Source: a virus. Taken from it: a DNA stretch of 25,374 nt. A program made the position numbers and the translations under genes. Shown piece by piece: positions 190 through 17,346 of this stretch. The notes beneath the pieces were generated by a model, which worked only from the letters and a program-made list of their open reading frames with translations, was not told the DNA's origin and did not search any database. Location of the stretch: positions 1 to 25,374 of the IMG/VR virus record IMGVR_UViG_3300036978_000038; one strand, given 5' to 3'. Numbering within the stretch: position 1 is the first letter of the stretch; every line of letters starts with the position of its first letter.

Positions 190-3100
190 TTAATAACTTT
201 CCATTGCTTTTTTTCTTTTTCTTTTTTCTCTTCTTTTGTCTCGTTCATCTTGTTCAATTTGAGCTTGAACCGCAAATGGTAATTTACTAATACTATCTTG
301 TCTTGCTTGTTTTGTTTCTTCTCTAGATATTTTAGCTTTTTTAATTCCTTCTTCTTTTCTTATGGCTTTTGCTTTAGCGCGTATTTCTAAATCACCTTTT
401 GTATCTTCTATACCTACTGAGTAAGGTGTAAACCCAACCCCAACAGCAACTCTTTGCCAAGCTTGATTTTGTGAGTTCATTGCTTGAGATACATTTTCAA
501 TCTTATTTACCAAACGATCCATTGGAAAGTTTGTACCAGCTTCTACTAGTTTTCCAGTTACGCTGTACATAGGTCCTAAGTGAACTCTACCATCTTGCAT
601 TACTCCCCAGCCTCTTTCTGCTATAAGATCTTTTTCAAACTTAGTTTGTTGAAGCCCTGTATATACTTTTCTAAGCTTAGATCCAATTGGAGGGGATATA
701 TTAGCACCTTCTAACATAACTTTTGCGTAGTCAGCTTTAAAACCTTTATCTTTTTCATCAAGATACTTATTGGTCATGTTTTTTAATACAGATATAATTC
801 CCCCTAAAAACCCGGTACCTCTAAGTATTGTATCTAATACCCCGTCAGCTACGTCTATCAATCTTTCGTTAAGCGTTTTCTTTTTTGCTTTTTCTTTTTC
901 TTTATCTATTTCTTCATCGTCATCATCAAAGGCAACCGCAAATAAACCTTGTTGTAATACGGCAAATAATGTATTTTGTATCCCTAAGTAATAAACTATT
1001 TTTGCCACATGGGTTTTAGCATCCCCCCTACCGTTTTTAAGATCTAAAAAAGATTTTTTAACAGTACGAGCTTGCTGCATTGCAGTGTTTTGAAAAGTTA
1101 ATAATAATCTACCCGCTCCACTTGCTTGTTGTTTTGATATATCTCTTGGGTCCCCTGACTGTTGAGTTTGATCTGATACTTTAGTAAAGTCACCCCAAGC
1201 CGCTTCTTCTGCTTCACTTTCCGTTAAGCCTTCTTTTAAATAACTTTTAATTCTATTTCTGTAAAACGGAGCGCCCCCGGACGCAATAGCAAAACTATCC
1301 GCTAATTGGGTTGGTGTATAACCTATTTTTAATAAATAAGATATAACAGAGTTAACTTTATTTTTACTACCAGCGGCAGCATTAGCAATTTCAGCAGCAG
1401 CAACGTCTTCCTTTAATCCGCCGCGTCTTTCTTTCATTTTGTCAGAATTCCATATACGTGAAAAATCTGCCCAATATTGTTTTTGATTTGCAAATGCTTT
1501 AGCAGCAGCTATAGGATTATTATCTCTTAAGTTTAAGAAATTGACAGCTCCAATTAATTGCAATGCAGCAGATCTAGTATTTAAGAACATAATAGTTCCT
1601 GTAGATCCGTTTACCCAGTTACTCCATCCAGAAGTTTCTTTATCACTTCCGTAACTTCTGTTCTTGCCATTGATCATTCTATATAATTGATCGTCTAAAG
1701 CTTCTCTTACGTTTGTACCGTAAACCGCTTCAATCTTATTTATATTAGGGCCAACCAATTTTCCGTTTTCAAACTTACCAAACATTTCTTCAGTGTTTTC
1801 AATAAACTCTGCAAGGAATTTTTTTCTACCAGCGCCTTCTGTTAAGTTATGTAAGTCAGATATAATTGTACTTGTATCCCAAAATTCAGTAGGAGCAACC
1901 CATCCTTTACCTTGTCTACCGGTAATTAATACACCTTGTTTGAATGCGGTTAATTCCGGATCATTGTTTATAAGATCTACTAATTTAGTTTGGTCTCTTT
2001 GTGATAAACCGGGTATTTCAACCCCTTCGTCAGACCATAAGGCAACGCGTATTGCTTGATCATATGTAAAATCACCATCCGGCGTTAAACTTTCTATTTT
2101 ATCTTTAATGCCAGGAAATTGATTTATTAATGCTTTATAATCCTTTTTAATTGATTGTCTTGCAGCATCCATTAAATCATTTCCGTTTGCATATGGTTTT
2201 AATAAAGCATCAGCAAAGAATTGTTGCTGCTCTTCTCCGCGTTCCCCTTTACCTATAAAATTATACAATAGTAATTCAAAATCTGCAGCAGATGGCGGAA
2301 CATACAAATCAAATTTGTTTTTACCGGATCCTCTTCTTCTTGCAACAATATCTGAAAATACTTTATAGTTTTCCATTCCAGTATTCTCTTCAATTATCTT
2401 ATTGAATTCTGTGGATATGGTTTTACTAAATTTAAGTTTTGCTTGTTGTATTTTTGATTTAACATCTAATACTTCTAAAGCATTTTTAACCGCTTCAACA
2501 TTTTGTATTGCATCATCTGCAAAGTAAAAATCATTATATCCTTCTGCTGCTTTAGCGGTCATCCAATCTGCCTTTGCTTGAGCGGCACTATTGCCTAATC
2601 CAGTTATATTTTCTATTGGTATATCAATACCTATTGAATCTAGAAACTCTTTAATAGGCGCCGCTGCATTTGCCGGTCTTGCTGTAAGAATAAAGAAATT
2701 TTCATTGCCAAATTTAGCAATCATTTTTTTCATCTTTTCAACCATAGGCCCTGGCTTGCCGTCAACAACTTTACTAAATTCAGAGAAATCAAATTCTGCT
2801 CCGGCATCAAGCATATTTCCGCCTTCTTTTGCAAATTCTTCTGCATTCAATTTACCTTCAGTTCCATCTGGCATTGTGTATAGCACGCTACCACTCGTAA
2901 AAGCCGATGTGTCATCAAAATCAAAAACCGAAATGCCTTTTGATGTTTTAGAAAACTTAGGGTTTAAAGACCTTGTAACCGCATCATTTGTAATTGCATC
3001 TTTTTTTGCTTTTGATAATTTAGCAGAGTTTCTTATTGCATCAAATACTTTTACAGCACCTTCCGGGGTGTCTAAATTAAAATCAGATTTTTCATTAAAA

Positions 3101-6100
3101 TTAGGATCTAAATAAAAATAAACTCTTTCTGTCAAAGTTCTCCATGTACTATTTTTACTAGCAGCATTTGTTCTAAACTCTGATGAAGCAAATATTTTAC
3201 CAGTTATAGGGGGAATACCACCCACTGATTTTCCTGGAAAAGTAAAAGCTCCGTAATTTTGTATTTGCAATATATCTTTGTCTGAATTTATATCTGATAA
3301 AGATTGCAAATCTACTTCTGCATTAGTTGAAGTACCTGCTCTATCTAAAATTTTATAAAGGTCTCCACTTATTTGTATTCCCTTAGGAGTTAACCTAACA
3401 TCTTTACTTTTTTCGTCTATCAATTGTTGTAAATAATTAATAAATTTTGTTCTAAATTTATTAGCTTTTTGAGCATCTTTTAAATCTTGTAGCCCAGCAA
3501 ATTCTTTTGTATATTTTGAATCATCATTCATGAAATTACCATTACTTGTGCTGCCAAGAGGATCTCTAGGATTTGATTTAAGCTCTACAGTGGTTTTTTC
3601 ATCTGTATTTTCATCAATAATAACTAAATCATTTTTTTTACTATTGAATCTATCCGGTACGTCATCTTCTAAACTTAAGTTTACTCCCGTTAAATACCCT
3701 TTTACTTTTCTTAACGCTACATAAATATCTTTTTCATATCTAACACCTAAATTTTTTTCCCAAATCTCTTTATATTTATCTAATAATGATCCGTTTTCAT
3801 TTAAAAAATCATCTAAATTTCTTTTTTCTTTTTCAGATAAATCTTTATAGAATTGCGTATAAGGCAAATAATTTCTTCTCCAATTCCCTTCGTTCAATAA
3901 GAATAGGGCAGCAGCTCTGTCGCTTGCTTTAGAAAATTTAACATTACCTCTGTCCGCTTGTTTTTCAAATTCTGTTTTTATAACTTCAGTAACTTCAACG
4001 CCTTGTCTTTCTTGATTTGTATTAAAAGCTTCCAGTATAGGGCCATCGGTTTCAAAGTCTTCTTTTATAAGTTCAAATGCAAGTTCTTCAGACATTGCTT
4101 TTGCTAATGATTCTTTTCTACCACGCAATGGATTTCCATCAGGACCAATTACCTGCGCTAAAAAGTCTGCGTCAGATATATTATTAGCAACATTAGGTAG
4201 TCTTCTAACTAATTCAGCTCCGGAAGTTCTACCCGCTAAATCAGTAGTTGTTTTTTCTCTATCAATTTTTTTACCAACCCATTCTGGAAAACTAACCCAT
4301 TTGCCATCAATTTGTTTTTGAATAGCAATTGGCATACCTCCTTGACCATCTTTACCCATAAGCCAAGTGGTAGTCATATTTTCAAGAATATATCTTTTGC
4401 CTTTTAAAAGAAATTTTTCAAGTTGTTGATCTTTTTTACCTCCCATTGCAGTTTTAATGTCAATGTCAAGTAACTTACCCATTTCGTCTTTAATCTCCCC
4501 AATTAATGGCGTTACTGTTCTATTTAAAGATACAGGAGCATCAATTCTAGATTTTAATGTTCTTACAACCGATAAAGCCTTTTTATTGCCTGTTTCTATC
4601 ACCTCTGGCGGAAAAACTTTTGATTCTAATGCGTTTTTATATTTTGGCTTTTCTTTTACCTCTACGGCTGTTTCTTCGGCTATTAAAGCTTTTTGATCTT
4701 CAACGTCTTTTTTGATACCTCCTTTAGTTGCACCCTCAATACCTAATTCATACGCTAAAGCATTTGCTCTAAGATTTAAACGAGAACTAATAAATTTATC
4801 TAATGATTGCTTAGTTGGATCAAATTCATTATTAATTAATAACGCAGCGCTTTGTAATAAAGCATCTTTATACTCTTCTCTAGTAACGCCACGCTTTGCA
4901 TCGGCAGCAATAGGGTCGTATAATCTTCTTGTTATTGTTTCAACTGATCCGCCAAGCTCTTTACCTATTACAGATTTTGAAAAATCATTAGTAACACCTC
5001 CAGACGGAGTATTTCTTAATCCTTCAGAAGCAAACTTTTTAGGATTGCCTTCATATTTTGTGTCTAATAAATTTTGTAAATTAGTTTTTGTTTTAGGTTT
5101 ATTCTCTGTAGATTCTTTTTTTACAGTTTCTTTTTTAGGGGTTTCAGCTTTTATGCTTGGCCCATTAGCTTCTTCATCTTCTAATATAGCTAATTGATCT
5201 TCAAATTGCTTGTCGGATATTTCCTCGGAAGCATAGGCATCGTATAAATCATTAATACGCTCTTGTACACTTTTAGAGGAAGCTATATTACCAGTCATTG
5301 ATTTTCCAGCTTCTAATAAAGTTTTTTGGCGATCTGTTAATTTACCAGCTTTTGATGTTATATGATAATCCTTTAAAAATTGGTATATATCATTACCACT
5401 TTCAAAATCTAATTTTTCAAAACCTAATTTTTTATATATAGGACGAATTAAAGATTTCCACATGCTTTTAAATGTAGCGTCTGTAGCTTTAATTTCGCCA
5501 GCTTCTAATGCTTCAAAAAATTGTGTTAAATATTCATCCTTATTATTAGCAAGGTATTTTGCATCATAACCCCTGTCTGCTAATCTTTGCTCTATTACCG
5601 CATTTTCTTTATTACTTAACACGCTTGTAAATTGATTTAATAATTTTTCAGATTGAGCAGCGTCATTAAATTGTGATTTTAATATTTTATGCAATAATTC
5701 ATGTCTACCTGCAGAAGCTCCTTCATCAACTTGTCTAGCTATTTCTCTATTTATTATTATTTGCCCATTAGGCAATACTATTGCCGGCTCGTATTGGTAA
5801 TCTATTTTTACTTTTTTGCCGTTTTTATCGGTTTCGTATAATTCTTCTTCCCTATTATTATTTACAAACCATTCTTCAGCCAATTTAGCGGTTTCTTCTT
5901 TAGTTGATACAACACTATAAGCTTGTCCATTATTAATAGACCCTTCCCCAAAAGTTTCAGCTTCTGCTTGAGAGGTTAATGCTTGTAATCTTTCTACTTC
6001 TGTATCTAATCTTTGATCATAAACACCTGTAATTTCAGCATTTAATGCTTCAATCTTTGCATCAATTGGAGCGTGAAAGGGCGCAGCAATTTCTTTTTTA

Positions 6101-8412
6101 CTAGATTCTAAATTGCTAACTTCTTCTAATTTCCTAACTAAATCTAATGTTGTTTCAGCATTAATATCTTTTGGTATATGTCTTAATTGTCTTACGGTTG
6201 CAATAGCATCAGATTTTAATTGATTTGCTTCTTCTGCGGTAGCGGTTCCATTTGCTACCATAGTATCTAAATGATCAGATAAAGAATTTGGATTTTGACC
6301 TAAAGTAACTAAATTATTTATTTGTTGCCTAGGATCTTGTTTAAAGTTTGGCAATTTAGCATTAGCAATCATACCTCCAGATAAAAAAGCTAACCCGCTA
6401 GTGTTAACAAAATCTTGATAAGTATAATCTTCCTTTAATATTTTTTGACCAGCTAGCTCATTAATGCTAGCATTGACTTGTTCATTTTCTAATTTTTGTT
6501 GTATATTTTCTTGTATAGTTTCTTTTCCTCCTTCTTCAACAAATCCAACTGCCCCTCTTGCAAAAGTTTTTACATTACCAGTTAAGTTATTTATAAACCC
6601 TTTAGCTCCGCCTGTTTTATAGGCCTCTAATGCTTCCTTTATTAAATTTTGCTCTGCAGATCCAAATATTAACTCTCTTGCTTTCGTTTGTGGCGATAAT
6701 GGAGCTGTAGCTGCGTATAGCAAAGCCATTTTAGATCCTGCGTTTAAAGCAAGCGTTTCTGCCTCTTTATCATTTATGCCAGCGTCTTTAGCGGCCTTTA
6801 AAGTTTGTTCGTATCCATTAGAATATCCAAAAGCGCTTTGAGCTACAACCGCGCTAGCCATATCTTTAGTTATTCCTAATGGCATTTTAGCTAAAGTCTT
6901 AGCGCCCCCTATAGCTTCACTGGCTTCAAGAATATTTTTATATTGTTTTATAGATGTAAATCCATTTTTTGCTGCTGCATATCTAGTTAATGCGGCGTTA
7001 CCAAGTCCCGCTGTTGCTTCTGTTAATAAAATTTGAGGTATCATTGCTCCAACTACTTGACCTGTAGCCTTAGCTGATCCTCTCGCATTTACATCCCAAT
7101 CTTCAACGCCTTTAGCGTCAATTTCGTCATTTATTTTTTTGTATTCTGCATTGTCAATTAATCCGCCTACATTAAAACCGTTGGTTATATCATATATATT
7201 ATTATTTTCGTCTTTTATATATTTTATACCGTTTTTTGTTATACTTTTCCCATTAATATAAGAATGAGATCTTGTGTCAAAGTTTTTAAATTCTTCAATG
7301 TCTCTAGCATCTCTCCCTCTTTCTGCAGCATCATCAAATCCAATTAAATCAAGACCTGTATTAATTAAATCTTGTGTTGTATCCCAAAAACCGCTTCCTA
7401 TGTTTTTTATTGCTAAACCAGTATTTTCAATACCGCCTTGAACCGCTCCTCTTTTAGAAACTTCTGAATATAATTGTTTTTCTTTAGCTAGTCTTTCTTT
7501 CTCTAACTTGCTCATAATAGGAAAAACATTAGCCTTATAATCGTCGTCTATTGTATTTTGCCAGTTGGTGCTTCCTTTTTTTGCTGCTACAATGTCTTGC
7601 CAATTTGCTTTAGGATTATTCTTCTTGGCCTCAAGCATAGCCAGTTTCCCGGCTCTTTCGTCTTTGTCTTTTAAATAAGAATTTAAATAAGTATTTAATA
7701 TTTTTTCTTTTTTAAATTTAATATCTTCCTCAGATCGAGTGGCTCTTCCCATCCACTCCGGCATATAATCTTCAAGCTTTTCAGTAAACGATCTTTCAAA
7801 AGCACCGTCCTGTTCTTTTTCTATAAAATCATCCTTATACTTTTGCTTATTTATATAACCATCAAAATCATTAATATCAATGCCTCTCTTCTTTAATAAC
7901 TTTTCATTATAATTTCTACTTACAAAGTCATCCCCCATTTTTGAATTAGAATAATATAAGTAAGGACTTTTTAAATCAAGATCGTATTTTTCAATTTCTT
8001 TTTGAACATTTTGGGGATCGCTTAGCATGTCGTTTACGAAACGATCCGGCATTCCTTTTTGAAATCCGGTTTGCGGACCTATATAGCGTTCTTTAGGTAT
8101 ACCCATTTCAAGAACCTCTTTCTTTTTATCTATACCAAAATTTGGAGCAACCTTACCTGACTGTCTATCTTCTACAGTTCGAGCAGGTTTATAAAATCTA
8201 TTTAAATTAAGCGGATCATATTCTTTTATTTCACCAAAAATATTTTCTTTAATTTTTACCGGGGCAACTGTTTTTTTAGATTTATTAGCCGCTCTATTTA
8301 CCAATTTTAAACCTCTTTTTTGTATATAAGCCGCTGCTTTATCTGCTCCTCCGGCTGCTCTATTTATTTGATCTTCAGTATATATTTTGCCGTTAAGTTC
8401 GTATTCTAACAT
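190..8412 (-). CDS. Giant multidomain internal virion / ejection protein (polyvalent protein), 2740 aa
   Basis: Last gene of the late block, probably packed in the particle and ejected with the DNA. Visible modules in order: an N-terminal charged region; a Gly/Ala-rich hydrophobic stretch around 440-475; a zincin-like HELLH at 904-908 with a possible third ligand E960; a Lys-rich linker near 1130; a sigma-like helical segment around 1165-1225 (EFDPTK at 1196-1201); KFSK at 1492; a PD-(D/E)XK-like D1595...E1610-x-K1612; KFSK at 1819; a HAD-like module with DFDDT 1831-1835, TAR from T1910 and DD 1966-1967; KFSK at 1994; then a long helical C-terminal part with hydrophobic stretches near 2470-2495 and 2525-2550 and a very basic end. 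This matches the 'polyvalent protein' theme described for phages and conjugative elements, in which several enzyme domains share one delivered chain. The frame is intact and the start is the first ATG, 22 bases after the 551-aa gene. Whether any module is catalytically active is unknown. Confidence 0.8.
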   Translation of the reverse strand: MLEYELNGKIYTEDQINRAAGGADKAAAYIQKRGLKLVNRAANKSKKTVAPVKIKENIFGEIKEYDPLNLNRFYKPARTVEDRQSGKVAPNFGIDKKKEVLEMGIPKERYIGPQTGFQKGMPDRFVNDMLSDPQNVQKEIEKYDLDLKSPYLYYSNSKMGDDFVSRNYNEKLLKKRGIDINDFDGYINKQKYKDDFIEKEQDGAFERSFTEKLEDYMPEWMGRATRSEEDIKFKKEKILNTYLNSYLKDKDERAGKLAMLEAKKNNPKANWQDIVAAKKGSTNWQNTIDDDYKANVFPIMSKLEKERLAKEKQLYSEVSKRGAVQGGIENTGLAIKNIGSGFWDTTQDLINTGLDLIGFDDAAERGRDARDIEEFKNFDTRSHSYINGKSITKNGIKYIKDENNNIYDITNGFNVGGLIDNAEYKKINDEIDAKGVEDWDVNARGSAKATGQVVGAMIPQILLTEATAGLGNAALTRYAAAKNGFTSIKQYKNILEASEAIGGAKTLAKMPLGITKDMASAVVAQSAFGYSNGYEQTLKAAKDAGINDKEAETLALNAGSKMALLYAATAPLSPQTKARELIFGSAEQNLIKEALEAYKTGGAKGFINNLTGNVKTFARGAVGFVEEGGKETIQENIQQKLENEQVNASINELAGQKILKEDYTYQDFVNTSGLAFLSGGMIANAKLPNFKQDPRQQINNLVTLGQNPNSLSDHLDTMVANGTATAEEANQLKSDAIATVRQLRHIPKDINAETTLDLVRKLEEVSNLESSKKEIAAPFHAPIDAKIEALNAEITGVYDQRLDTEVERLQALTSQAEAETFGEGSINNGQAYSVVSTKEETAKLAEEWFVNNNREEELYETDKNGKKVKIDYQYEPAIVLPNGQIIINREIARQVDEGASAGRHELLHKILKSQFNDAAQSEKLLNQFTSVLSNKENAVIEQRLADRGYDAKYLANNKDEYLTQFFEALEAGEIKATDATFKSMWKSLIRPIYKKLGFEKLDFESGNDIYQFLKDYHITSKAGKLTDRQKTLLEAGKSMTGNIASSKSVQERINDLYDAYASEEISDKQFEDQLAILEDEEANGPSIKAETPKKETVKKESTENKPKTKTNLQNLLDTKYEGNPKKFASEGLRNTPSGGVTNDFSKSVIGKELGGSVETITRRLYDPIAADAKRGVTREEYKDALLQSAALLINNEFDPTKQSLDKFISSRLNLRANALAYELGIEGATKGGIKKDVEDQKALIAEETAVEVKEKPKYKNALESKVFPPEVIETGNKKALSVVRTLKSRIDAPVSLNRTVTPLIGEIKDEMGKLLDIDIKTAMGGKKDQQLEKFLLKGKRYILENMTTTWLMGKDGQGGMPIAIQKQIDGKWVSFPEWVGKKIDREKTTTDLAGRTSGAELVRRLPNVANNISDADFLAQVIGPDGNPLRGRKESLAKAMSEELAFELIKEDFETDGPILEAFNTNQERQGVEVTEVIKTEFEKQADRGNVKFSKASDRAAALFLLNEGNWRRNYLPYTQFYKDLSEKEKRNLDDFLNENGSLLDKYKEIWEKNLGVRYEKDIYVALRKVKGYLTGVNLSLEDDVPDRFNSKKNDLVIIDENTDEKTTVELKSNPRDPLGSTSNGNFMNDDSKYTKEFAGLQDLKDAQKANKFRTKFINYLQQLIDEKSKDVRLTPKGIQISGDLYKILDRAGTSTNAEVDLQSLSDINSDKDILQIQNYGAFTFPGKSVGGIPPITGKIFASSEFRTNAASKNSTWRTLTERVYFYLDPNFNEKSDFNLDTPEGAVKVFDAIRNSAKLSKAKKDAITNDAVTRSLNPKFSKTSKGISVFDFDDTSAFTSGSVLYTMPDGTEGKLNAEEFAKEGGNMLDAGAEFDFSEFSKVVDGKPGPMVEKMKKMIAKFGNENFFILTARPANAAAPIKEFLDSIGIDIPIENITGLGNSAAQAKADWMTAKAAEGYNDFYFADDAIQNVEAVKNALEVLDVKSKIQQAKLKFSKTISTEFNKIIEENTGMENYKVFSDIVARRRGSGKNKFDLYVPPSAADFELLLYNFIGKGERGEEQQQFFADALLKPYANGNDLMDAARQSIKKDYKALINQFPGIKDKIESLTPDGDFTYDQAIRVALWSDEGVEIPGLSQRDQTKLVDLINNDPELTAFKQGVLITGRQGKGWVAPTEFWDTSTIISDLHNLTEGAGRKKFLAEFIENTEEMFGKFENGKLVGPNINKIEAVYGTNVREALDDQLYRMINGKNRSYGSDKETSGWSNWVNGSTGTIMFLNTRSAALQLIGAVNFLNLRDNNPIAAAKAFANQKQYWADFSRIWNSDKMKERRGGLKEDVAAAEIANAAAGSKNKVNSVISYLLKIGYTPTQLADSFAIASGGAPFYRNRIKSYLKEGLTESEAEEAAWGDFTKVSDQTQQSGDPRDISKQQASGAGRLLLTFQNTAMQQARTVKKSFLDLKNGRGDAKTHVAKIVYYLGIQNTLFAVLQQGLFAVAFDDDDEEIDKEKEKAKKKTLNERLIDVADGVLDTILRGTGFLGGIISVLKNMTNKYLDEKDKGFKADYAKVMLEGANISPPIGSKLRKVYTGLQQTKFEKDLIAERGWGVMQDGRVHLGPMYSVTGKLVEAGTNFPMDRLVNKIENVSQAMNSQNQAWQRVAVGVGFTPYSVGIEDTKGDLEIRAKAKAIRKEEGIKKAKISREETKQARQDSISKLPFAVQAQIEQDERDKRREKRKRKKAMESY
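2434..2946 (-). other. HAD-like phosphatase module bounded by KFSK
   Basis: Residues 1823-1993. Motif I is DFDDT (1831-1835), with D1831 as the expected nucleophile and D1833 as general acid/base. Motif II is a strand ending in a threonine (FFILTAR, T1910). Motif IV is an acidic pair at the end of a strand (FYFADD, D1966-D1967). A lysine before it (AKADWM region) could serve as motif III. Order and spacing fit the haloacid dehalogenase superfamily. The module begins straight after one KFSK and ends straight before the next. Confidence 0.72.
2959..3927 (-). other. KFSK-bounded module with PD-(D/E)XK-like signature
   Basis: Residues 1496-1818, lying exactly between two KFSK tetrapeptides. D1595 begins a hydrophobic strand (DLVIID); after a short charged hairpin a second strand carries VELKSN with E1610 and K1612. 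D...ExK on adjacent strands is the catalytic pattern of the PD-(D/E)XK nuclease superfamily. The region after it is Lys/Asp-rich and not recognised. The superfamily is very divergent, so this remains a candidate. Confidence 0.4.
4738..4920 (-). other. Sigma-70 region-2-like helical segment within the giant protein
   Basis: Residues about 1165-1225. A helix (YKDALLQSAALLINNEF) leads into FDPTKQSLDKFISSRLNLRANAL. The pattern resembles the sigma-70 region 2 stretch in which FDP and a small basic turn are followed by F-[ST]-x-[YF] and an arginine-containing helix. The resemblance is short and could be chance. It lies after a Lys-rich linker, so it may start a separate module. A DNA- or RNA-polymerase-binding role is speculative. 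Confidence 0.3.
5488..5760 (-). other. Zincin-like metallopeptidase segment within the giant protein
   Basis: Residues about 885-975. HELLH (904-908) matches the HExxH zinc site: two His ligands and a catalytic Glu. A downstream helix reading DEYLTQFFEAL supplies E960 as a plausible third ligand, the arrangement expected of gluzincins. In front lies a beta-rich stretch (PAIVLPNGQIIINREI). This is a motif-level call only. If active, it could process the chain itself, its neighbours in the particle, or host proteins. Confidence 0.6.
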
Positions 8413-8434: not shown

Positions 8435-10090
8435 TTATTCTACTTTAAGGTATTTAGCCGCTTCCGCTTTTGAATTATATCCAGTCTGTGTGCTTTTTTT
8501 CCATTCACCGCTTGAAGGGCTAAATGTACTTATCATCCATTTTTTACTAGCTGGATCATAGGTTGTCATTTTGCTTCCATCAATACTTTCCATTGTATCC
8601 GTATCATTGCTTGCTTCCCATGCTGTTATTAATCCCAATCTTTGTTTTCTATTTTGTAAATCTAATTGCTGCCCAGGAGTTAATTTATTATCAGCAGGCA
8701 TATCTTTAGCATATACAATAGGTTCACTTTTAGATTCATAAACATCATCTCCTACTTTATTAGCTATTTTATTTTCTACATCTTTTGGAGTAGCGAGCCT
8801 TCTAGTCCATGTTTTACCGCCACCTGCATTTGTACTTGTTAAACGAGATTCTAAATCTAATGACATAGCCTGATTAGCCATAAACTCTATCATCTTTTCG
8901 TCGGTTTTATATGTTTCTCGAAGTTTATCAACAGTCATGTCTGGCAGCTTAAGTCTATTCTGTAAAAATCCGTTCCATACTGAAATATCTTTAAAATCAG
9001 ATTGCATTAGCCCTTGAATATTAAAATTATAATATTGAGAAGATGCTTGTTTTATAGCGTTTACATTTGCATAAACCGTCTCTACATAAGCAGTCTTTTT
9101 ATTTTTGCTTAATCCCTCACTAACTTTCACATCTTCGGTTTTAGGCACTCCATTATTATAAAGAAATTTAGTAAATAGCCCTCCTTTTTCAGTATCTAAT
9201 ACATTACCATGATCTTTATCTAATTCTGTTCCCTGTGTTGCTTTTGGTATTTTTCTATAAAAACTATAGTCCCATCCCTCCCCAATTTGCTTTTCAAAAT
9301 TAATTATAAATTCTTGTTTATCATTTTTAGTAATTTTTCCATCACTAATCCCTTTATCCAAAGCTTCTTTAATTTTTTCAGTAGGAGTGTCGTTAGGGAA
9401 ATAATTTGCAAAAGCTTTTATTGCCTCTGCTTCAGAGCCTATATTTGTTTTAAGATTAAGTTTTGCTAGCGAAGGATTATTTTCATCTGATGTATATTTT
9501 TTTTCAATTTTTCCAGCATAACCAAGATTTTTTGGATTCATTGCAAAAAAGGTAACTTGATTGCTAAATTTTTCTAATTGATCAGTCCCATTCCAAACAA
9601 TATTTGTAACAGCATCAGAACCCATTGCATCATATTCAGTTTGATTAGCTAATATTCCCCCGGCCATTTTAACAGCATTATCTTTTCCTACTTCTAAGTT
9701 TTGATTGAAAGTAGATATTTCTTGTAATCTTTCCTCTGTTTGAGGAATAGTAGCAACTTCCATTGCAAAAGTTCCGCTTTTGCTATAATTTTTAGCTATC
9801 ACGCCTCCAATTTGCTTTTGTAATTCTGTATCGGTTTTACTTATAGTTGATAAAGTATTGCTAGTTTGCTTGTTATTATATATATCACTTTCTAATCTTA
9901 GTGTTTGCTGGCGAAGTATTAATTCATCTGCTTCTTTTCTTTTCTTTTCTAATAATTTTGCCTGTTCTAATAATTTAGCATCCCTTGCGGCACGTGCTTT
10001 TTCAAAGTTTTCGCTAAAGGCAGTAATACCTTGAGCCAAAATCATCCCGGAATTATCTTTAATTATTGTTGGATTATCGTATGCACTCAT
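8435..10090 (-). CDS. Putative internal virion protein, 551 aa
   Basis: No domain recognised. The N-terminal third (about residues 27-80) is a charged, probably coiled-coil segment rich in Lys, Glu, Arg and Leu; the rest looks mixed alpha/beta and soluble, with no signal peptide. It lies between the Ala/Gln-rich internal virion protein and the giant protein, the place held by the middle of three ejected core proteins in T7-type phages (gp14-gp15-gp16). The role is inferred from position, not homology. Its start follows an A/T-only leader (TAAAAAAATATAAATA then ATG), 13 bases downstream of the stop of the frameshift extension of the gene before. It ends in TAA, 22 bases before the giant gene. 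Confidence 0.6.
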   Translation of the reverse strand: MSAYDNPTIIKDNSGMILAQGITAFSENFEKARAARDAKLLEQAKLLEKKRKEADELILRQQTLRLESDIYNNKQTSNTLSTISKTDTELQKQIGGVIAKNYSKSGTFAMEVATIPQTEERLQEISTFNQNLEVGKDNAVKMAGGILANQTEYDAMGSDAVTNIVWNGTDQLEKFSNQVTFFAMNPKNLGYAGKIEKKYTSDENNPSLAKLNLKTNIGSEAEAIKAFANYFPNDTPTEKIKEALDKGISDGKITKNDKQEFIINFEKQIGEGWDYSFYRKIPKATQGTELDKDHGNVLDTEKGGLFTKFLYNNGVPKTEDVKVSEGLSKNKKTAYVETVYANVNAIKQASSQYYNFNIQGLMQSDFKDISVWNGFLQNRLKLPDMTVDKLRETYKTDEKMIEFMANQAMSLDLESRLTSTNAGGGKTWTRRLATPKDVENKIANKVGDDVYESKSEPIVYAKDMPADNKLTPGQQLDLQNRKQRLGLITAWEASNDTDTMESIDGSKMTTYDPASKKWMISTFSPSSGEWKKSTQTGYNSKAEAAKYLKVE

Positions 10091-10103
10091 TATTTATATT
10101 TTT

Positions 10104-10939
10104 TTATCTAATTCTTACTAAAGGTGTTGATGCGAGTTGTGACGCAGCAGAAGGCCCCATAACAGGACCTGCCGCTGTAAGCCCTCCGCCGAGGGCACTT
10201 ACTTTCCCGCACTTCCACCTACAGCCCCTCCAAGCCCACCAAGAGCAGACCCTATTCCGGCAGCAGCCCCACTCCATGCAGCGGCTTGAGCCTCATTAGC
10301 ACTTGCTTGATTTTGTAGCGCTTGTTGTTCTTGTCCTGCCGTATATCCAAGATCTTGGTTTGTTCGGGCTTCTTGAGATTGAAACATAAATTGTTTACCA
10401 GCCGCTTCGTTTTGTTGTAATCTTTGACCTTCGCTAATCTGTATTCCTTGCAATCTTTGTTGCTCAGACATTTTGGCTTGATTTTTTTGTACTTCACCCT
10501 GCGCTTTTAACTTTTCATTTTCGCCTTCTTGTTGCTCAATGCTGGCAGCAACACCTTTCTTACTTTGCAAAGCAGCTTGTGCTAATGCCGTTGCTCCACC
10601 TGCACTTGATCCGGTTTCACGTAAAGTATCTAAAGTATTTGCTAAAGCTAAATCCGATTGCTCCATTTGTATTTCTGCGGCCTGGGTAGCAACGCCTAAA
10701 TTTGCATAAGGATTTGTTATCATACCAGACAAATCTTTTGCCATACTGCTAAGATCTTTATCATTAGCGTATGGGTTTGTAATTTTTTGTCTGTTTGCTT
10801 TTATAGCTTCCATTTCGGCTCTAGCTCTTGCAGCGTCGTTTGCTGCCCCTTTTGCCGCTTGACCTGCTTGGTGAGCCGAAACTGCTCCACCTATTAAGGA
10901 TGTTCCTACTCCTACTGCCACCGCTGTTATTGCTGCCAT
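10104..10939 (-). CDS. Predicted -1 frameshift product of the internal virion protein, 278 aa
   Basis: After the zero-frame codons GGA AAG, a one-base backward slip gives GTA AGT GCC and so on. This frame stays open for 32 codons, starting VSALGGGLTAAGPVM and ending TPLVRIR, with TAA at 10104-10106. The added tail keeps the Gly/Ala-rich style of the zero-frame C-terminus, as expected of a continuous protein. It fills most of an otherwise unexplained 108-base gap in a tightly packed block, leaving 13 bases before the 551-aa gene. An alternative is a one-base sequencing or assembly error, or a recent mutation that truncated a 278-aa gene. Confidence 0.65.
10177..10208 (-). promoter_or_regulatory. 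Programmed -1 ribosomal frameshift signal: GGGAAAG slippery site plus stem-loop
   Basis: On the minus strand the codons read GCG GGA AAG TAA, placing G GGA AAG in the X XXY YYZ register (10202-10208). GGGAAAG is the heptamer used by phage lambda for its gpG/gpGT frameshift. Five bases later (TAAGT) comes a perfect stem GCCCTC-GGCG-GAGGGC (10181-10196), unusually GC-rich for this genome. A further GTAA/TTAC pairing could extend it across the stop codon. Slippery site, a stop in the spacer, spacing and structure all fit a -1 signal. Confidence 0.72.
10199..10939 (-). CDS. Ala/Gln/Gly-rich internal virion protein, zero-frame product, 246 aa
   Basis: Resembles the small T7 gp14-like internal virion proteins of short-tailed phages. 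It has an N-terminal Gly/Ala-rich hydrophobic segment (residues 1-37, with alternating small residues that could insert in a membrane), an imperfect internal duplication carrying ITNPYAN at 53-59 and 74-80, a long Gln/Glu/Ala helix (about 80-215) and a Gly/Ala C-terminus. Such proteins are carried in the particle and help form the channel for DNA entry. It starts 1 base after the GNAT-like gene. The stop TAA comes directly after a GGGAAAG slippery heptamer in the correct phase, so this 246-aa form is probably one of two products. The protein assignment comes from composition and position. Confidence 0.7.
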   Translation of the reverse strand: MAAITAVAVGVGTSLIGGAVSAHQAGQAAKGAANDAARARAEMEAIKANRQKITNPYANDKDLSSMAKDLSGMITNPYANLGVATQAAEIQMEQSDLALANTLDTLRETGSSAGGATALAQAALQSKKGVAASIEQQEGENEKLKAQGEVQKNQAKMSEQQRLQGIQISEGQRLQQNEAAGKQFMFQSQEARTNQDLGYTAGQEQQALQNQASANEAQAAAWSGAAAGIGSALGGLGGAVGGSAGK

Positions 10940-10940
10940 A

Positions 10941-11348
10941 TTACATTATTTTTTTTGAAATTTCATACGATGGGCTTTCATCCACCGTATAACCTAATTT
11001 TTTGTGTATATTTATTAAACTTTTATTTCTAGCAATGCTAATTATTATGCTATACCCTTCTAGCTTTGCAACCAACTCTAAACTTTTTATAAGCATCTCT
11101 AAAGCGTCTTTTCTATCCGCTTCTCTATATTGCGGATTAGATACAATCCAATCCAACCATGCTACCTTAGAGTTTGATAAGTATAAAAACCCGGCCGCAA
11201 CCGGAATATCTCCTTTGCAAACCATTATGCCTCCGCACCCATTTAAAGGTAAAGTTTCTTTACTGACCTCAGGCCATCTCCACCATTTCCACCATGAGGA
11301 CATACTTTCCCAATCGGATTCTTTTAATTCTCTTACTGTTAATTTCAT
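10941..11348 (-). CDS. GNAT-like N-acetyltransferase, 135 aa
   Basis: A short single-domain protein with the GNAT layout: beta strands around residues 38-70, strand 4 (AWLDWIVSNPQYR, about 68-80), a long helix (about 84-104), strand 5 (SIIISIA) and the helix NKSLINIHKKLGY (about 108-120), the usual end motif. GNAT enzymes move acetyl from acetyl-CoA to an amine on a small molecule or protein. The pyrophosphate-binding loop, usually R/Q-x-x-G-x-G/A, reads here as YREADRKDA and lacks the glycines, so cofactor binding may be altered. It lies between tail and internal virion genes, 20 bases after the 563-aa gene and 1 base before the next, and is clearly co-transcribed with them. Its substrate is unknown; a virion protein or a host target are both possible. 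Confidence 0.7.
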   Translation of the reverse strand: MKLTVRELKESDWESMSSWWKWWRWPEVSKETLPLNGCGGIMVCKGDIPVAAGFLYLSNSKVAWLDWIVSNPQYREADRKDALEMLIKSLELVAKLEGYSIIISIARNKSLINIHKKLGYTVDESPSYEISKKIM

Positions 11349-11352
11349 TTTA

Positions 11353-11372
11353 TTTAATTTAATTTAATTTAA
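11353..11372. repeat. Four tandem TTTAA units in the leader of the GNAT-like gene
   Basis: TTTAA is repeated exactly four times, read as TTAAA on the coding strand just before AATAAAATG. It overlaps the stop codon of the 563-aa gene. It is probably an A/T-rich translation leader that grew by slippage; nothing suggests a protein-binding array. Confidence 0.6.
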
Positions 11373-13060
11373 CTTAATGAAGCAACATAGTCTGAAGATA
11401 CGGCAAACAATATTGCTTGCTTATTATACACTATAGAAGACTGCGTTGGATCTGGAAATTTAAAAGTACCTATAGCATAAAAGCCGGCCGTTCCCGACAT
11501 TGATTGCCCATAAACAACTGTTCCCTCCGATGGAGGAGATACATTTACTATATTTCCAAAATATTTATTTTCTTTTTGTTTAAAATTATTTGTAAACAAT
11601 TGATTTTCTAAAGAGTTTAAATTATAAGAAACAGTTGCCGACGTTATTGGAACGCCTACATTAGCATCTGTATATATATCTGTTAAAGCCCAACCAGTAG
11701 TACCTTCGTAATTAACTGTTTGGAAATTTTTAGAATAAGAAGGATCAGGGTTAAATATAATAGTTACACTAGAGTCGTATTGGGTGCTATAAAAATTACA
11801 AAAAGGCACACTAGTTGAATAATGTTTCCAAATATTTCCGCTTGCGGCGGTATAATAGCTACCTAACATGCTAAACCCATTATCCGGCCTAAAAGAAAAG
11901 GTGCTAGTCCATCCTAAAGAATCTTCGTCAAAAGCTAATGTTTTATATTCAGGTAAGTAACCTGTTTGATTTGGTCTTGAAGCGCCTTTGCTTAAAGCTG
12001 GCTGCATGGATAAAACGTATTGCTTATTATGCATGTCCCAAGATCCTGCTATTTTACCATCTAACCCGATTTCTGTTAAGTTATCTCTAAAATAATCTAG
12101 CATACCTGTGTTTGATATTTCTGTTATACCATCTTGAGATAATCTTAAAACAGCATTTTGATTTCTATCTACAAAGTATTTTCTATAACCATAAACAGCA
12201 AAACTTTCTGGGTTGGTGCTTATACCATAGTTACCAGCATATTGTTGTGTTTGCCCAATTACTAGAGTTCCAGAAGTAGTTAACGGCATTCCTTCTGCAG
12301 AATAAATAGCGTCTTTATCTATTAATGCTCTACTTACTTTTAATTCTTGAAAGATTATTAAATTAGTATCTTCCGCATATAATTTTTGTATTGTTCCAAG
12401 AGACGGATCTAAAGTCCTAGTTATATCTTCAGCAACTGAAAATTGATTGGTATTATTTACTCCTGTTCTAGAATTAAATACGCCTGAATATATTAAAGAG
12501 CTTCCTCTTTTTTGTCTGTTCGGACTATTTTCAACTATAAACGCTCTAACCCCTAAGTCTGTTGATACATTATTATAACCTCCTCTAATTCTTGATTCTT
12601 CTATAAACCAATCTTCTGTATCGCTGGAGCTATATTGTGTTTGACCAGCAACTACCCCATTTGAACCTGGAACATAATTAAAATCCCATATTTTACCAAA
12701 AGTAAGAGGTATAAAACTAACTCCGGCATTTGTAGTAAAAGTTACTAAAAGCGGTTCGTCTATATATATATTGTATTTTGATGAATTTAAAGGGTCAACT
12801 TCTACTCCAGATATAGTATAAGTATAAGTTTGCGAACTTATTCCGGTTAATGGATAAGTAAATGTTAATTTTTGACCTGGTCCTATAAATCTAGCATTAT
12901 ATCCACTAAATGTTTCATAAGTAAAAAATCTATTCCCAGTTGCAAATATAAATTTTAAACTATCAGTGCTTAAAGTAGTATAGGCTTTTACCGGCTGAAT
13001 TGATTTTATTTTCTTTAGCCAATATGAGTTAAAATATTTTATTTCTATAGTTGCTGCCAT
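11369..13060 (-). CDS. Tail nozzle / muzzle-type structural protein, 563 aa
   Basis: A beta-rich protein low in charge and rich in Ser, Thr, Tyr, Gly and Asn, with no enzyme motif. The stretch around residues 222-255 (IQKLYAEDTNLIIFQE, then VSRALIDKDAIYSAEG) and that around 272-326 (YAGNYGISTNPESFA, YRKYFVDRNQNAVLRL) are patterns I associate with a large tail protein of crAss-like and marine short-tailed phages, where repeated strands build a propeller-like distal tail tube. In those relatives I recall these motifs on the same chain as the N-terminal motif found here in the 1418-aa protein, so the two may be parts of one assembly. Start ATG follows an A/T-only leader, 29 bases after the upstream gene. 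Tail location is inferred; the exact ring is not determined. Confidence 0.6.
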   Translation of the reverse strand: MAATIEIKYFNSYWLKKIKSIQPVKAYTTLSTDSLKFIFATGNRFFTYETFSGYNARFIGPGQKLTFTYPLTGISSQTYTYTISGVEVDPLNSSKYNIYIDEPLLVTFTTNAGVSFIPLTFGKIWDFNYVPGSNGVVAGQTQYSSSDTEDWFIEESRIRGGYNNVSTDLGVRAFIVENSPNRQKRGSSLIYSGVFNSRTGVNNTNQFSVAEDITRTLDPSLGTIQKLYAEDTNLIIFQELKVSRALIDKDAIYSAEGMPLTTSGTLVIGQTQQYAGNYGISTNPESFAVYGYRKYFVDRNQNAVLRLSQDGITEISNTGMLDYFRDNLTEIGLDGKIAGSWDMHNKQYVLSMQPALSKGASRPNQTGYLPEYKTLAFDEDSLGWTSTFSFRPDNGFSMLGSYYTAASGNIWKHYSTSVPFCNFYSTQYDSSVTIIFNPDPSYSKNFQTVNYEGTTGWALTDIYTDANVGVPITSATVSYNLNSLENQLFTNNFKQKENKYFGNIVNVSPPSEGTVVYGQSMSGTAGFYAIGTFKFPDPTQSSIVYNKQAILFAVSSDYVASLS

Positions 13061-13089: not shown

Positions 13090-16000
13090 TTACAGAGGAC
13101 AAGTTACCGATGCTCCTGTATAAGTTATTATCCCTCCTATAGCTCCTGTACCTCCTGCCGTTAGACTTAAATATCTAGCAATTGGTTGAGTTCCTCCGTT
13201 AGCAGGAGTACCTACTTGCTCACCTGGTTGAAGAATACCCCCTAGTATTTCATGCCCATTCCCGTGAAGACCACTCCAAGGAATTGGAAAACTAGAATTA
13301 TTTACTATATACCAATTTCTACATTGAGTAGGCACATATCCAGAAGGAACTCCAGCGACGCAAGTATCAGCAAAAACTTGTCTATATACTCCAGAAGGAG
13401 CCGTTGAAGCAACGCCAGTTGAAGTAAATAATATTGATATTGTTCTACCAGCTGAAGTAACTATTGTTCCTTTAAAAGTTATATCTTCTGGCGGATTAAC
13501 AGTTGGTCTAAGGCCGCCAGAGCTGCCTGCTACCCATGTATTTGTAAAATCACCATTAAAATTAGTTGTAGAATTAGGTGTAAATGTTACATTCCAAGAT
13601 CTATCGGGTAAATTATAATATGTATATGGCGTAAAATATTCTTTCCAAGATGTAATCCAAACATCAGATGAAGCAATTGTTTCTCCTTTTCTTAACATTT
13701 TCCATATGTTTATATAACCCTGAGTAGTACTGCCAGTTATGGTTAAAGTAGAAATATCTTCATATACAATGCTGCTCCATGTTCCGCACCCAACAGAAAC
13801 ATTAGGAACACTTAACCTAACCTCTCTAAAGGCAAATAATCCTCCGGGCGTTTGTAATCCAGCCGAAGTGGTGGCATCTTGAAGTTTCACTCTAAGATCA
13901 AAAGTTCCGGCTAATATATTTGTATTTATTAAACTAACATCTCCTGTAGAAGAGTTTACACTAAACCATTGCGAATAATCAAAACTAGGTAATGGATCGT
14001 ATTTCCAATACAAATCAGCTAAATAATTACCACTGTATATTCCAAAATTACCATTCTTACCGATCATATCAATAACAGGCCCTATTATAGGATCTGCAGT
14101 TAAATTATACACTGGAGTTAAATCAACACTTGGATTTGTTATTGCGGGAACTGTATTTGATACTTTTAATATTTCACCAGCGGTTGTTACAATAGGTGTG
14201 TAAACAACAGCGGAAGGTCCAACGCCAACAGTATGCGTTATTGCAAAGTTAAATATAAAACTTCCAAAGGTATTTATATTAGTTCCAAAATAAATTTCAC
14301 TTGATAATATTTTTATTCTCCAATACAAATAGGTAGGACTAAGCGGGGCTAAATCTTGTACCAATTGAAAAGAAGAAGTTATATCTTGATTGCTTCTATT
14401 AAAAGCAGAAAATACCATGTTATCAATACTTAATACAGCTACGCCTGATTCATTTTTAAAATAAAACCATTCTGTTATCCAGGGTGAATTAGCAGCTCCA
14501 GTTATATTACTACCTCCTTGAAAGTCTTGATTTTCAAAATATAAAAAATCTAAAGGCGAATAACTTACTATAGCATCTGATCCGTTTAAAACATCCGCAT
14601 TTAATTCTGATATATATCCTGAAGTAGATGTTTCCCAAAAAATATCTAATGCTGAACTAACAGGATTTGTTTCGTAAACCCCTAAGAACGGGCTCATTGC
14701 ATTCCAAATAATTGGACTATTTGCAGTATTTGGCCCAACATAATTTCCAATAACACCGATTTTGTTTGCTGTTGTAACTCTATTTACTAAAGGCGAAGTT
14801 TCAAATTGATATATATTAAAAGAGGCCGATCCGTGAGGATTTTCTTCTGTGGAGTTTGGCAAAAAATTTAGTTCTTGCGTTGGAGCTATTGTACTAACAA
14901 CATCAGGCTGAGACCCTGGGTAATATTGCCTATTAGAAGCATACCCAGTACTTATACTACCTTGGTTTACAAGCATATTTTCAACTCTACCCCATATTTG
15001 AGCACTACTTCTGTATTGTCTTTGATTTGGTCCAACCTCAGATAAATCTCTTGGTATTTTATTTATATTATCGTTTATAGATATAAAATGACAAGTTGTG
15101 CTCTCCTCTCCAACTGGAAATACAGAATATTGAGTTGGGGCTGGAGTAGTAGCAAATGATTGATTTACAGGATAGCCTGCTAACATTCCTGGAACATAAA
15201 CATTATAATATTCTTGCTCTTGTTGTTTAACTACTATCTTATAAGAATACCAACCTAATTCATTTATAGAATATGAATATTTAATATCAGGCACATTAGC
15301 ACTATTATAATTATAAAAATCACTTATAGCTCCGTCTGTTGTTATTACATAAGAGCCTGACGGTGGATTTGGAAGCGGCGTAGGTGGAATTATAATTGGA
15401 GATACTTGTACGTTTGTTACTTTTACATAATCAGTGTATTTGCCTCTTAAATAATTTCCAATGCTTGGGATATTTTTTTGCGCCGCCCCTCCTGTTAAAG
15501 TTAATGTATAAGTATTTCCAACAACCGCTCCGGCGGTTATTTGAAAACCAGCGCTGCTTCCAGATATACTACCAGAAACAGTTGCATATAATCCCGGGGT
15601 TCCAGAAACTTCGTCTCTAGATGATGTTATTTGTTTATTAAATATAAGAGCAAGCTCATCACCTAGCCAATCTTTTACATCCGTAGTCCAGAAACTATCT
15701 TTATATGGAAGAAACACGGACGAAGCACCGTATACTATATTTCCACCGGTAGTGTAAGGACTAGCGGAAGATAATATAACGGAAGATTGTCTACCAAATT
15801 TATCGGATAAAACAACGCCTACTTGATAAGTTCTATTTTGTTTTAATGTATGATTTGGATATTCTAGCCAGCTGTAAAAAGGCAGGTCTTTTTCTATAAC
15901 TACTACATTATAATCTAAAGTTGCCGGCGGAGTACTTTGATTTATAAAATTACCATATATTATTCTATTTCCCGCACTTTCTTGCGACAATGCTCTAACT

Positions 16001-17346
16001 GGCACCTTATCATATACTCTAACCGTTTCTGCTTCTTGTAATGTTTTACGAGGTTTTTGTGACTCATATACATAACTATATATATTTGTAGATGGCGCGT
16101 TTAAAGCTATATTACTTGCTGTAATAGTTTCAACAACCTTAACAGCTAAAGCGTCTGATTCTTTATAAAGTATGTCAATACTTTCTATTTTATATGAATT
16201 AATTATATTACTACCAGTATCAGGCAATTCTATTAAAAGCTTAACAGAATTAACATCATTCTGCATCCATTCTAATACGGTTGACTTATAAGCAGCGTCT
16301 TCGTCTCCATTTATAAAATAACCTTTTTGTTCGGGTATAAATACAGGTTGCGAGAAAGGAGCCATTAAAGAATACTCATTATCATCAAACTTAAATCTAT
16401 AACTAAATCTAACAAATTTATCAGATAAAAAATTATCATTTCCATTTACAATAGATTGCAAAGGAGCTTTTGACATTAAGCATCTGTAAAATGTTAAAGA
16501 TTCACCGCCAACAATAGGGGGCACTAATGTGGTATAATTTCCAGATACATATACCCACGAATAACCAAAAACTGCTGGAATTATATTTGTTACTATGGCA
16601 GAGTCTCCAACGGTTATTCCATATCCTACTAATTGATCGCCCATAGTAAGTCCACTAGAAGTAATAGTAGATGTTAAAATAGCTAATTTTGTTTGACCAG
16701 CTTCCAAAACAGCAGCGCCAGAAACAACATTACCTTCTATAATAGTAAACATACCGGGAGCAGTAAATGGAGCATATTTTGCTACAGATATTTGATCCAC
16801 TGTAGTATAATAAGGGGTTGGTGAAGTTGCTGGATTTGCAATAGCACTAGATATATTTATTTTTCTAGGCTGATTTCTATTATCAGTCCAGAATAATAAA
16901 TTTTCTACCAAATTTACACCTGTTATTAAATTTGTAACTGAAAAATTTAAAAAATTTCCACTTACTAAAGTTATATATGGATTTCCAGAATTTAAAGCAT
17001 CGTAAACAGTGATCTTCATTTCTCTACCCGCTGGAGGTAAATTTATATTTGAAGGATTTGGATCTTGATAATCTGTTAAAAATTGATATATTCTATTGTT
17101 TTCATTATCTACAAAATAACCAATACAAACTAAGTCCGTGTTTGATTCAAATGGTTCTGTACCCGTAGAAGTTGGTTTTGTAAGTTGAGCATTGCCTAAA
17201 ACGTTTTGCAAAGAACCAACGCTTTGATTTTCAGATTTTCCAACAGATATATTTAAAGCATCTCTATATTCTCCGTTCGGTAACAATCTGTTATCGAGAT
17301 CTTTATTCATTTTACCTTTTAGGAAACTATTTTTTACTTCTGCCAT
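13090..17346 (-). CDS. Large tail nozzle / muzzle-like structural protein, 1418 aa
   Basis: The N-terminus carries KGKMNKDLDNRLLPNGEY followed by DALNI, a pattern shared with tail tubular B / nozzle-type proteins of short-tailed phages. Later patterns support this: WTDNRNQPRKINI near 156, RFSYRFKFDDNEYSLMAPF near 312-330, and LKQNRTYQVGVVLSDKFGRQ near 498-518. These belong to a beta-propeller-like body. The C-terminal 400 residues differ: a cadherin/Ig-like stretch (FSVNSSTGDVSLINTNI, about 1125-1145) and a Gly/Ser/Thr-rich end with several cysteines, which may face outwards. It lies 5 bases after the 414-aa connector gene and 29 bases before the 563-aa tail gene, so all are made together. 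A tail-tip role with host contact through the C-terminus is inference. Confidence 0.65.
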   Translation of the reverse strand: MAEVKNSFLKGKMNKDLDNRLLPNGEYRDALNISVGKSENQSVGSLQNVLGNAQLTKPTSTGTEPFESNTDLVCIGYFVDNENNRIYQFLTDYQDPNPSNINLPPAGREMKITVYDALNSGNPYITLVSGNFLNFSVTNLITGVNLVENLLFWTDNRNQPRKINISSAIANPATSPTPYYTTVDQISVAKYAPFTAPGMFTIIEGNVVSGAAVLEAGQTKLAILTSTITSSGLTMGDQLVGYGITVGDSAIVTNIIPAVFGYSWVYVSGNYTTLVPPIVGGESLTFYRCLMSKAPLQSIVNGNDNFLSDKFVRFSYRFKFDDNEYSLMAPFSQPVFIPEQKGYFINGDEDAAYKSTVLEWMQNDVNSVKLLIELPDTGSNIINSYKIESIDILYKESDALAVKVVETITASNIALNAPSTNIYSYVYESQKPRKTLQEAETVRVYDKVPVRALSQESAGNRIIYGNFINQSTPPATLDYNVVVIEKDLPFYSWLEYPNHTLKQNRTYQVGVVLSDKFGRQSSVILSSASPYTTGGNIVYGASSVFLPYKDSFWTTDVKDWLGDELALIFNKQITSSRDEVSGTPGLYATVSGSISGSSAGFQITAGAVVGNTYTLTLTGGAAQKNIPSIGNYLRGKYTDYVKVTNVQVSPIIIPPTPLPNPPSGSYVITTDGAISDFYNYNSANVPDIKYSYSINELGWYSYKIVVKQQEQEYYNVYVPGMLAGYPVNQSFATTPAPTQYSVFPVGEESTTCHFISINDNINKIPRDLSEVGPNQRQYRSSAQIWGRVENMLVNQGSISTGYASNRQYYPGSQPDVVSTIAPTQELNFLPNSTEENPHGSASFNIYQFETSPLVNRVTTANKIGVIGNYVGPNTANSPIIWNAMSPFLGVYETNPVSSALDIFWETSTSGYISELNADVLNGSDAIVSYSPLDFLYFENQDFQGGSNITGAANSPWITEWFYFKNESGVAVLSIDNMVFSAFNRSNQDITSSFQLVQDLAPLSPTYLYWRIKILSSEIYFGTNINTFGSFIFNFAITHTVGVGPSAVVYTPIVTTAGEILKVSNTVPAITNPSVDLTPVYNLTADPIIGPVIDMIGKNGNFGIYSGNYLADLYWKYDPLPSFDYSQWFSVNSSTGDVSLINTNILAGTFDLRVKLQDATTSAGLQTPGGLFAFREVRLSVPNVSVGCGTWSSIVYEDISTLTITGSTTQGYINIWKMLRKGETIASSDVWITSWKEYFTPYTYYNLPDRSWNVTFTPNSTTNFNGDFTNTWVAGSSGGLRPTVNPPEDITFKGTIVTSAGRTISILFTSTGVASTAPSGVYRQVFADTCVAGVPSGYVPTQCRNWYIVNNSSFPIPWSGLHGNGHEILGGILQPGEQVGTPANGGTQPIARYLSLTAGGTGAIGGIITYTGASVTCPL

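Follow-up and report, generated by a model that had tools for sequence, protein, structure and literature searches.

A programmed −1 ribosomal frameshift very probably operates at the 3′ end of a phage gene for a gp14-like protein and would give rise to a tailed form of that protein. There are no ribosome or peptide data for this phage, and the proposal stands on comparison of related loci, which brings out the slippery heptamer, the hairpin, the open tail, the conservation of several tails as protein, and the recurrence of this arrangement across the family. The shift had been put forward from the letters of a single locus (the original prediction); it is now supported by the association of the heptamer with a gap after the gene, the position of the hairpin, the open −1 frame and several conserved tails in relatives. 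Because these features recur, chance or a sequencing error is disfavoured as their source.

The junction and its genomic setting

The window, that is, the whole stretch of DNA analysed, is a virus record of 25,374 bases, and the gene under study lies on its minus strand. In the zero frame, the gene ends GCG GGA AAG TAA. The original prediction had described GGGAAAG in the slippery register at this gene end, a 5-base spacer holding the stop codon, a 6-bp GC-rich stem closed by a tetraloop, and a −1 frame running on for 32 codons; each of these elements was confirmed (Table 1), and the −1 stop lies, as proposed, 13 nt upstream of the ATG of the next gene at 10090.

Table 1. Features of the frameshift junction and the genes downstream of it, in window positions
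Feature	Position	Strand	Basis
Zero-frame gene, 246 aa, inferred gp14-like internal virion (ejection) protein; stop TAA at 10201-10199	10199..10939	-	Open reading frame; profile match to the phi18:3 gp120 family
Slippery heptamer G_GGA_AAG, X_XXY_YYZ register	10202..10208	-	Sequence; counterpart in 21/24 long-gap loci
5-nt spacer TAAGT, with the zero-frame stop inside	10197..10201	-	Sequence
Hairpin GCCCTC-GGCG-GAGGGC, 6 bp, perfect; putative 3′ stimulator	10181..10196	-	Position conserved, sequence diverse in relatives
−1 frame tail, 32 codons and stop TAG (10106-10104)	10104..10202	-	Translation VSALGGGLTAAGPVMGPSAASQLASTPLVRIR
Next gene, 551 aa, gp15 position	8435..10090	-	Open reading frame; gene order common to cultured relatives
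2740-aa gene, gp16 position	190..8412	-	Open reading frame

The gene order on the minus strand is portal-like, capsid-like and muzzle-like (crAss_MUZ, crAss_MUZ_C), followed by genes of 135, 246, 551 and 2740 aa. The three consecutive genes of 246, 551 and 2740 aa match the gp14–gp15–gp16 order, with a comparable order in cultured relatives; the 2740-aa gene has no Pfam match. Capsid and portal are 34–51% identical, and more distantly related, to those of podoviruses of Flavobacterium, Cellulophaga and Maribacter, and because these are the relatives, the host is inferred to be probably a member of the Flavobacteriia. The genes at the matching positions in Cellulophaga phage phi18:3, gp120, gp121 and gp123, owe their annotation as virion proteins to MS/MS. 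A profile of the window's family matched the profile of the same gene from six cultured or named phages, phi18:3 gp120 included, at a probability of 96% (E 1.4e-9); its low-complexity composition calls for some caution. The best match among viral models was to one named internal virion protein (E 0.02), and AlphaFold predicted a nearly all-helical protein (mean pLDDT 78, pTM 0.48). No usable match to solved structures in the PDB, including any solved gp14, was obtained by sequence or by fold, which is not evidence of a new fold. From gene order and the profile match, we read the 246-aa protein as a gp14-like first member of a podovirus ejection cassette, its presence in the virion not having been shown for this phage. 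The earlier assignment to the gp14-type ejection proteins thus draws support from gene order and from a family annotated by MS/MS, and none from a solved gp14 structure.

Other assignments were set aside. A Pfam hit to Mto2_bdg on the window protein, below cut-off, was dismissed as chance coiled-coil similarity, and a tail assembly chaperone of the lambda G/GT kind was rejected on gene order, since no tape-measure gene of a long-tailed phage follows. The relatives are podoviruses, with crAss-type muzzle genes upstream and genes in the gp15 and gp16 positions downstream. Positions 13090–17346 and 11369–13060 match the N- and C-terminal parts of the crAssvirus muzzle protein (PF25731 and PF25729, respectively), as if the muzzle were split over two neighbouring genes in this phage. 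The 135-aa gene (phrog_17252, 10941–11348) separates the muzzle genes from the ejection genes; its positional counterpart in MW202828 carries an N-acetyltransferase subunit annotation.

Such shifts are conventionally explained by tandem slippage on G_GGA_AAG upstream of a hairpin, and in E. coli both G_GGA_AAG and A_AAA_AAG strongly favour shifting (PMC5009743). Regardless of register, GGGAAAG is not a rare string in the window (two found, three expected). Across zero-frame codon positions of this gene family, however, X_XXY_YYZ occurs at 0.5% and the heptamers counted below at 0.03%, which speaks against chance. All three frames happen to be open across 73–86% of the window's gap, and neither the comparison of tails among loci nor the search for relatives detected a relative of the window's own tail. 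The window locus alone is hence not decisive; its case rests on the heptamer, the hairpin and family membership, and the comparison of relatives decides. Its nearest relative, L001 (88% identical), lacks the heptamer and has a different in-frame end.

Heptamer, open frame and hairpin among relatives

Scans of viral contigs yielded 160 distinct loci, window included, for which the gene end and the following sequence were available (L-numbers denote loci). These were divided into a long-gap class (n = 24; gap of at least 50 nt, or contig ends) and a short-gap class (n = 136; next gene within 40 nt). An X_XXY_YYZ heptamer stood at the zero-frame stop in 21 of the 24 long-gap loci and in 4 of the 136 short-gap loci (Fisher p 2.5e-19; this value ignores relatedness, and the true one is less extreme). 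In the long-gap loci, the heptamer was GGGAAAG, GGGAAAC, GGGAAAT, AAAAAAG, AAAAAAC or TTTGGGG and began 7, 10 or 13 nt before the stop; none of the four short-gap loci pairs its heptamer with a long −1 tail. The long-gap class holds three loci without a counted heptamer: L249, L223 and L219. The first carries GGGGGAA and, because its tail is homologous to that of L274, is counted among the 22 frameshift loci; the 54-nt gap of L219 is noncoding in appearance. In L223 and L224, two contigs, the +1 frame stays open through the gap (NSASSITPASNSLVGQYSSS...) after GGC GGA GCC TTT GGG TAA, possibly reflecting a +1 shift at the stop codon.

The −1 frame was preferentially the open one. Where the gap was complete (21 frameshift loci), openness over at least 70% of its length was seen for the −1 frame in 20 loci, for the zero frame in 3 and for the +1 frame in 3. 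We give almost no credence to the idea that the tail has a small gene of its own or arises from readthrough of the zero-frame stop codon. The window's zero frame, open over 73% of the gap, would allow the latter, but so open a zero frame is confined to the 3 loci just given, and the homology to fused tails (see below) lies in the −1 frame. An independent small gene fails to account for eight frameshift loci, as their open −1 frame contains no start codon anywhere.

Distances to the next ATG bear on a more serious alternative. Measured from the zero-frame stop, the median distance is 104 nt in frameshift loci and 13 nt (maximum 40) in non-frameshift loci; measured from the −1 stop, the median in frameshift loci is 15 nt. 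The −1 stops are thus placed like the family's ordinary stops, which supports frameshifting as such. They would also be so placed if slippage were real but served the next gene: shifted ribosomes, ending 13 nt before the ATG in the window, would reinitiate there and set the gp14:gp15 ratio, with the tail itself doing little. Such a distance is, however, also expected if coding sequence simply extends as far as the next gene, and protein-level conservation is seen in several tails, some of which relatives keep fused in frame. We hold this reading to be unlikely, yet it cannot be excluded.

A folding signal accompanied the heptamer. The 30-nt window directly 3′ of it folded more stably than shuffled sequences (mean z −1.4, p 4e-5); the signal was weaker or near zero at other offsets and absent in controls (Mann-Whitney p about 1e-6). 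The controls' mean z at 30 nt is spoiled by a zero-variance case, and the comparison is better judged from the rank test and from the windows of 26 and 34 nt. Stems are mostly of 4–6 bp and start mostly 5 nt after the heptamer (range 3–8), and their sequences vary by lineage (GCCCTC/GAGGGC in the window, GCGCCG/CGGCGC in L249, AACCCC/GGGGTT in L139, GGCCC/GGGCC in L274). In L258 and L006 the heptamer is present and the hairpin weak or absent. For a Shine-Dalgarno-like (anti-SD) upstream stimulator, no signal exceeding that of non-frameshift relatives was found. The stop codon lies immediately 3′ of the heptamer in 15 of the 22 frameshift loci, from which we infer that a slow termination step may help slippage. 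Slippage of RNA polymerase, not of the ribosome, might produce the second frame where runs of A6 to A9 occur, as they do in a few loci (L003, L119, L258); most sites, the window's included, are instead GGGAAAG/C/T with only three A, two are TTTGGGG, and the hairpins stand at ribosomal spacing, leaving this origin extremely improbable.

The combination of slippery heptamer, stem-loop and open −1 tail, for which a comparison of homologues had been suggested at the outset, therefore recurs among the 160 loci. At least 13 changes in the trait are required on well-supported branches, which speaks against one ancestral event copied many times and argues for −1 frameshifting having been gained or lost many times in this gene. 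For several loci, identical junctions recur in contigs from different metagenomes. In the cultured relatives examined, the gene at the matching position is followed almost directly by the next one; tblastn searches of phage records with the window protein and the L072 protein found no cultured phage carrying the signal, and no bacterial genome contigs with it were found.

The tails as protein sequence

Homology joins the −1 tails into five groups (L006/L119/L122, L013/L016, L072/L217, L249/L274 and L279/L287), and for three −1 tails a counterpart stands at the zero-frame C-terminus of a relative: for L132 in L154 (81% over 16 aa, E 2.5e-9), for L258 in L257 (86% over 22 aa, E 3e-16) and for L274 in L259 (63% over 19 aa, E 3e-4). 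For the pooled tails, pS was 0.54 and pN 0.22 (eight pairs, three of them within one trio), and nucleotide alignments of four pairs had an excess of differences at third positions (p 0.02). With homologous tails aligned from few pairs, this test of selection is a modest one.

Either of two outcomes, it had been proposed, would refute the frameshift: a −1 frame not conserved as protein, or homologues with the two frames fused without a slippery site. As to the first, no relative of the window's own tail was detected, and several other tails of the family are conserved. As to the second, fused relatives do exist (L154, L257, L259), but the frameshift versions keep heptamer and hairpin in separate branches. 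Because they do so repeatedly, the fused relatives indicate that the tails are real protein sequence.

The same fused relatives could suggest that the gap is a product of decay or of an indel introduced in sequencing or assembly, that is, a tail once in frame and cut off by a one-base change. The near-identical L257 and L258, in which the A run at the junction is 9 or 10 long, a difference of one A, fit such an account, as do L018 and L200, where apparently decayed domain remnants are seen. Random indels would not, however, place a heptamer and a hairpin at the junction, and these recur at the same place, in separate branches and before unrelated tails; the junctions also recur in independent assemblies, and the pN of the tails stays low. 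We therefore judge a remnant or indel highly improbable as the explanation and retain programmed frameshifting. Of L257 and L258, one locus has the tail in frame and the other reaches it by slippage; their one-A difference may reflect either fusion in nature or a mistake in assembly.

C-terminal additions in the family thus exist in three states: none, fused in frame, and reached by frameshift. Twelve relatives (L008, L014, L029, L120, L149, L150, L171, L173, L201, L225, L252, L262) carry an in-frame C-terminal domain resembling the S74/endosialidase chaperone (SDRRLK.NI..IG...), just under the Pfam cut-off. It sits at the C-terminus of the same gene's product, a presumed internal protein, and the seemingly decayed remnants in L018 and L200 (DVEFK) lie downstream of the stop.

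A model for the tailed form and its known counterparts

In the mechanism that we propose, most ribosomes would stop at the TAA and release the 246-aa protein. A fraction would slip back by one base on G_GGA_AAG, GGA becoming GGG in the P site and AAG becoming AAA in the A site, with pausing provided by the hairpin 5 nt downstream and perhaps also by the stop codon in the spacer. The shifted ribosomes would read 32 further codons, ending 13 nt before the next gene, and would thereby make a 278-aa form whose tail is a C-terminal appendage following a Gly/Ala-rich helix. If T7 gp10A/10B is a guide, the particle or the pathway of its assembly would take up both forms, with the tailed one in the minority. 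That slippage takes place in the host, at whatever rate, that both forms are packaged and that the tail has a role are inferred. Our best guess, modelled on the extended minor capsid proteins of T7-like phages, is that a minor share of the subunits in the ejection apparatus is tailed, and a role in setting the ratio of the two forms in the particle is likewise inference.

Frameshift-extended virion proteins are known for capsid and tail proteins. T7 gene 10A/10B and other podovirus major-capsid frameshifts likewise use a −1 shift in a virion protein gene to make a longer minor form; in the major capsid gene of Proteus phage Privateer, the signal is also GGGAAAG, and the longer form was reported from virions (PMC7881722). 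T7 10A/10B and Privateer concern the major capsid protein, whereas here a gp14-like internal protein would bear short tails that differ between lineages. Lambda gpG/gpGT shares the G_GGA_AAG heptamer class and likewise yields two proteins from a single gene in a fixed ratio, but these are assembly factors absent from the mature virion (PMC5009743). In the present family, a presumed virion protein is concerned, the tail is of 15–39 aa, and a stop codon lies in or adjoins the spacer. In Lactobacillus phage A2 and Listeria phages A118, A500 and PSA, frameshifts give C-terminal extensions of structural proteins that are in frame in other phages; those are head and tail-shaft proteins, the extensions are often Ig-like domains, and some shifts are +1 (PMC5009743). 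T7 gp14 and P22 gp7 are likewise helical products of the small first gene of a three-gene ejection cassette (PMC8954989). Homology of T7 gp14 to the window protein has not been shown. Frameshifting goes unmentioned in a review of ejection proteins (PMC8954989), and in open-licence papers, the only ones searched, we found no description of it in an ejection protein, in keeping with the original prediction; within that literature, its probable occurrence in an ejection-type protein is what is new here.

For the ejection-type family of Bacteroidota podoviruses as a whole, we lean, with no great conviction, towards −1 frameshifting as a recurrent and evolvable route by which a minority of the ejection apparatus's subunits gain tails; the tails would often be swapped and the signal would re-form at the same place, and in L223/L224 a +1 shift at the stop may replace it. 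Such tails will be missed by gene callers. The natural series of no tail, fused tail and frameshift tail, with signals that appear and vanish, would be useful for studying how frameshift sites originate, and the phage group concerned has cultured relatives. The signal is present in many viruses of Flavobacterium-type bacteria, in which some ribosomes probably add a short extra tail; a device repeated at the end of an ejection-type protein suggests that the ejection machine may contain two kinds of subunit where one has so far been assumed.
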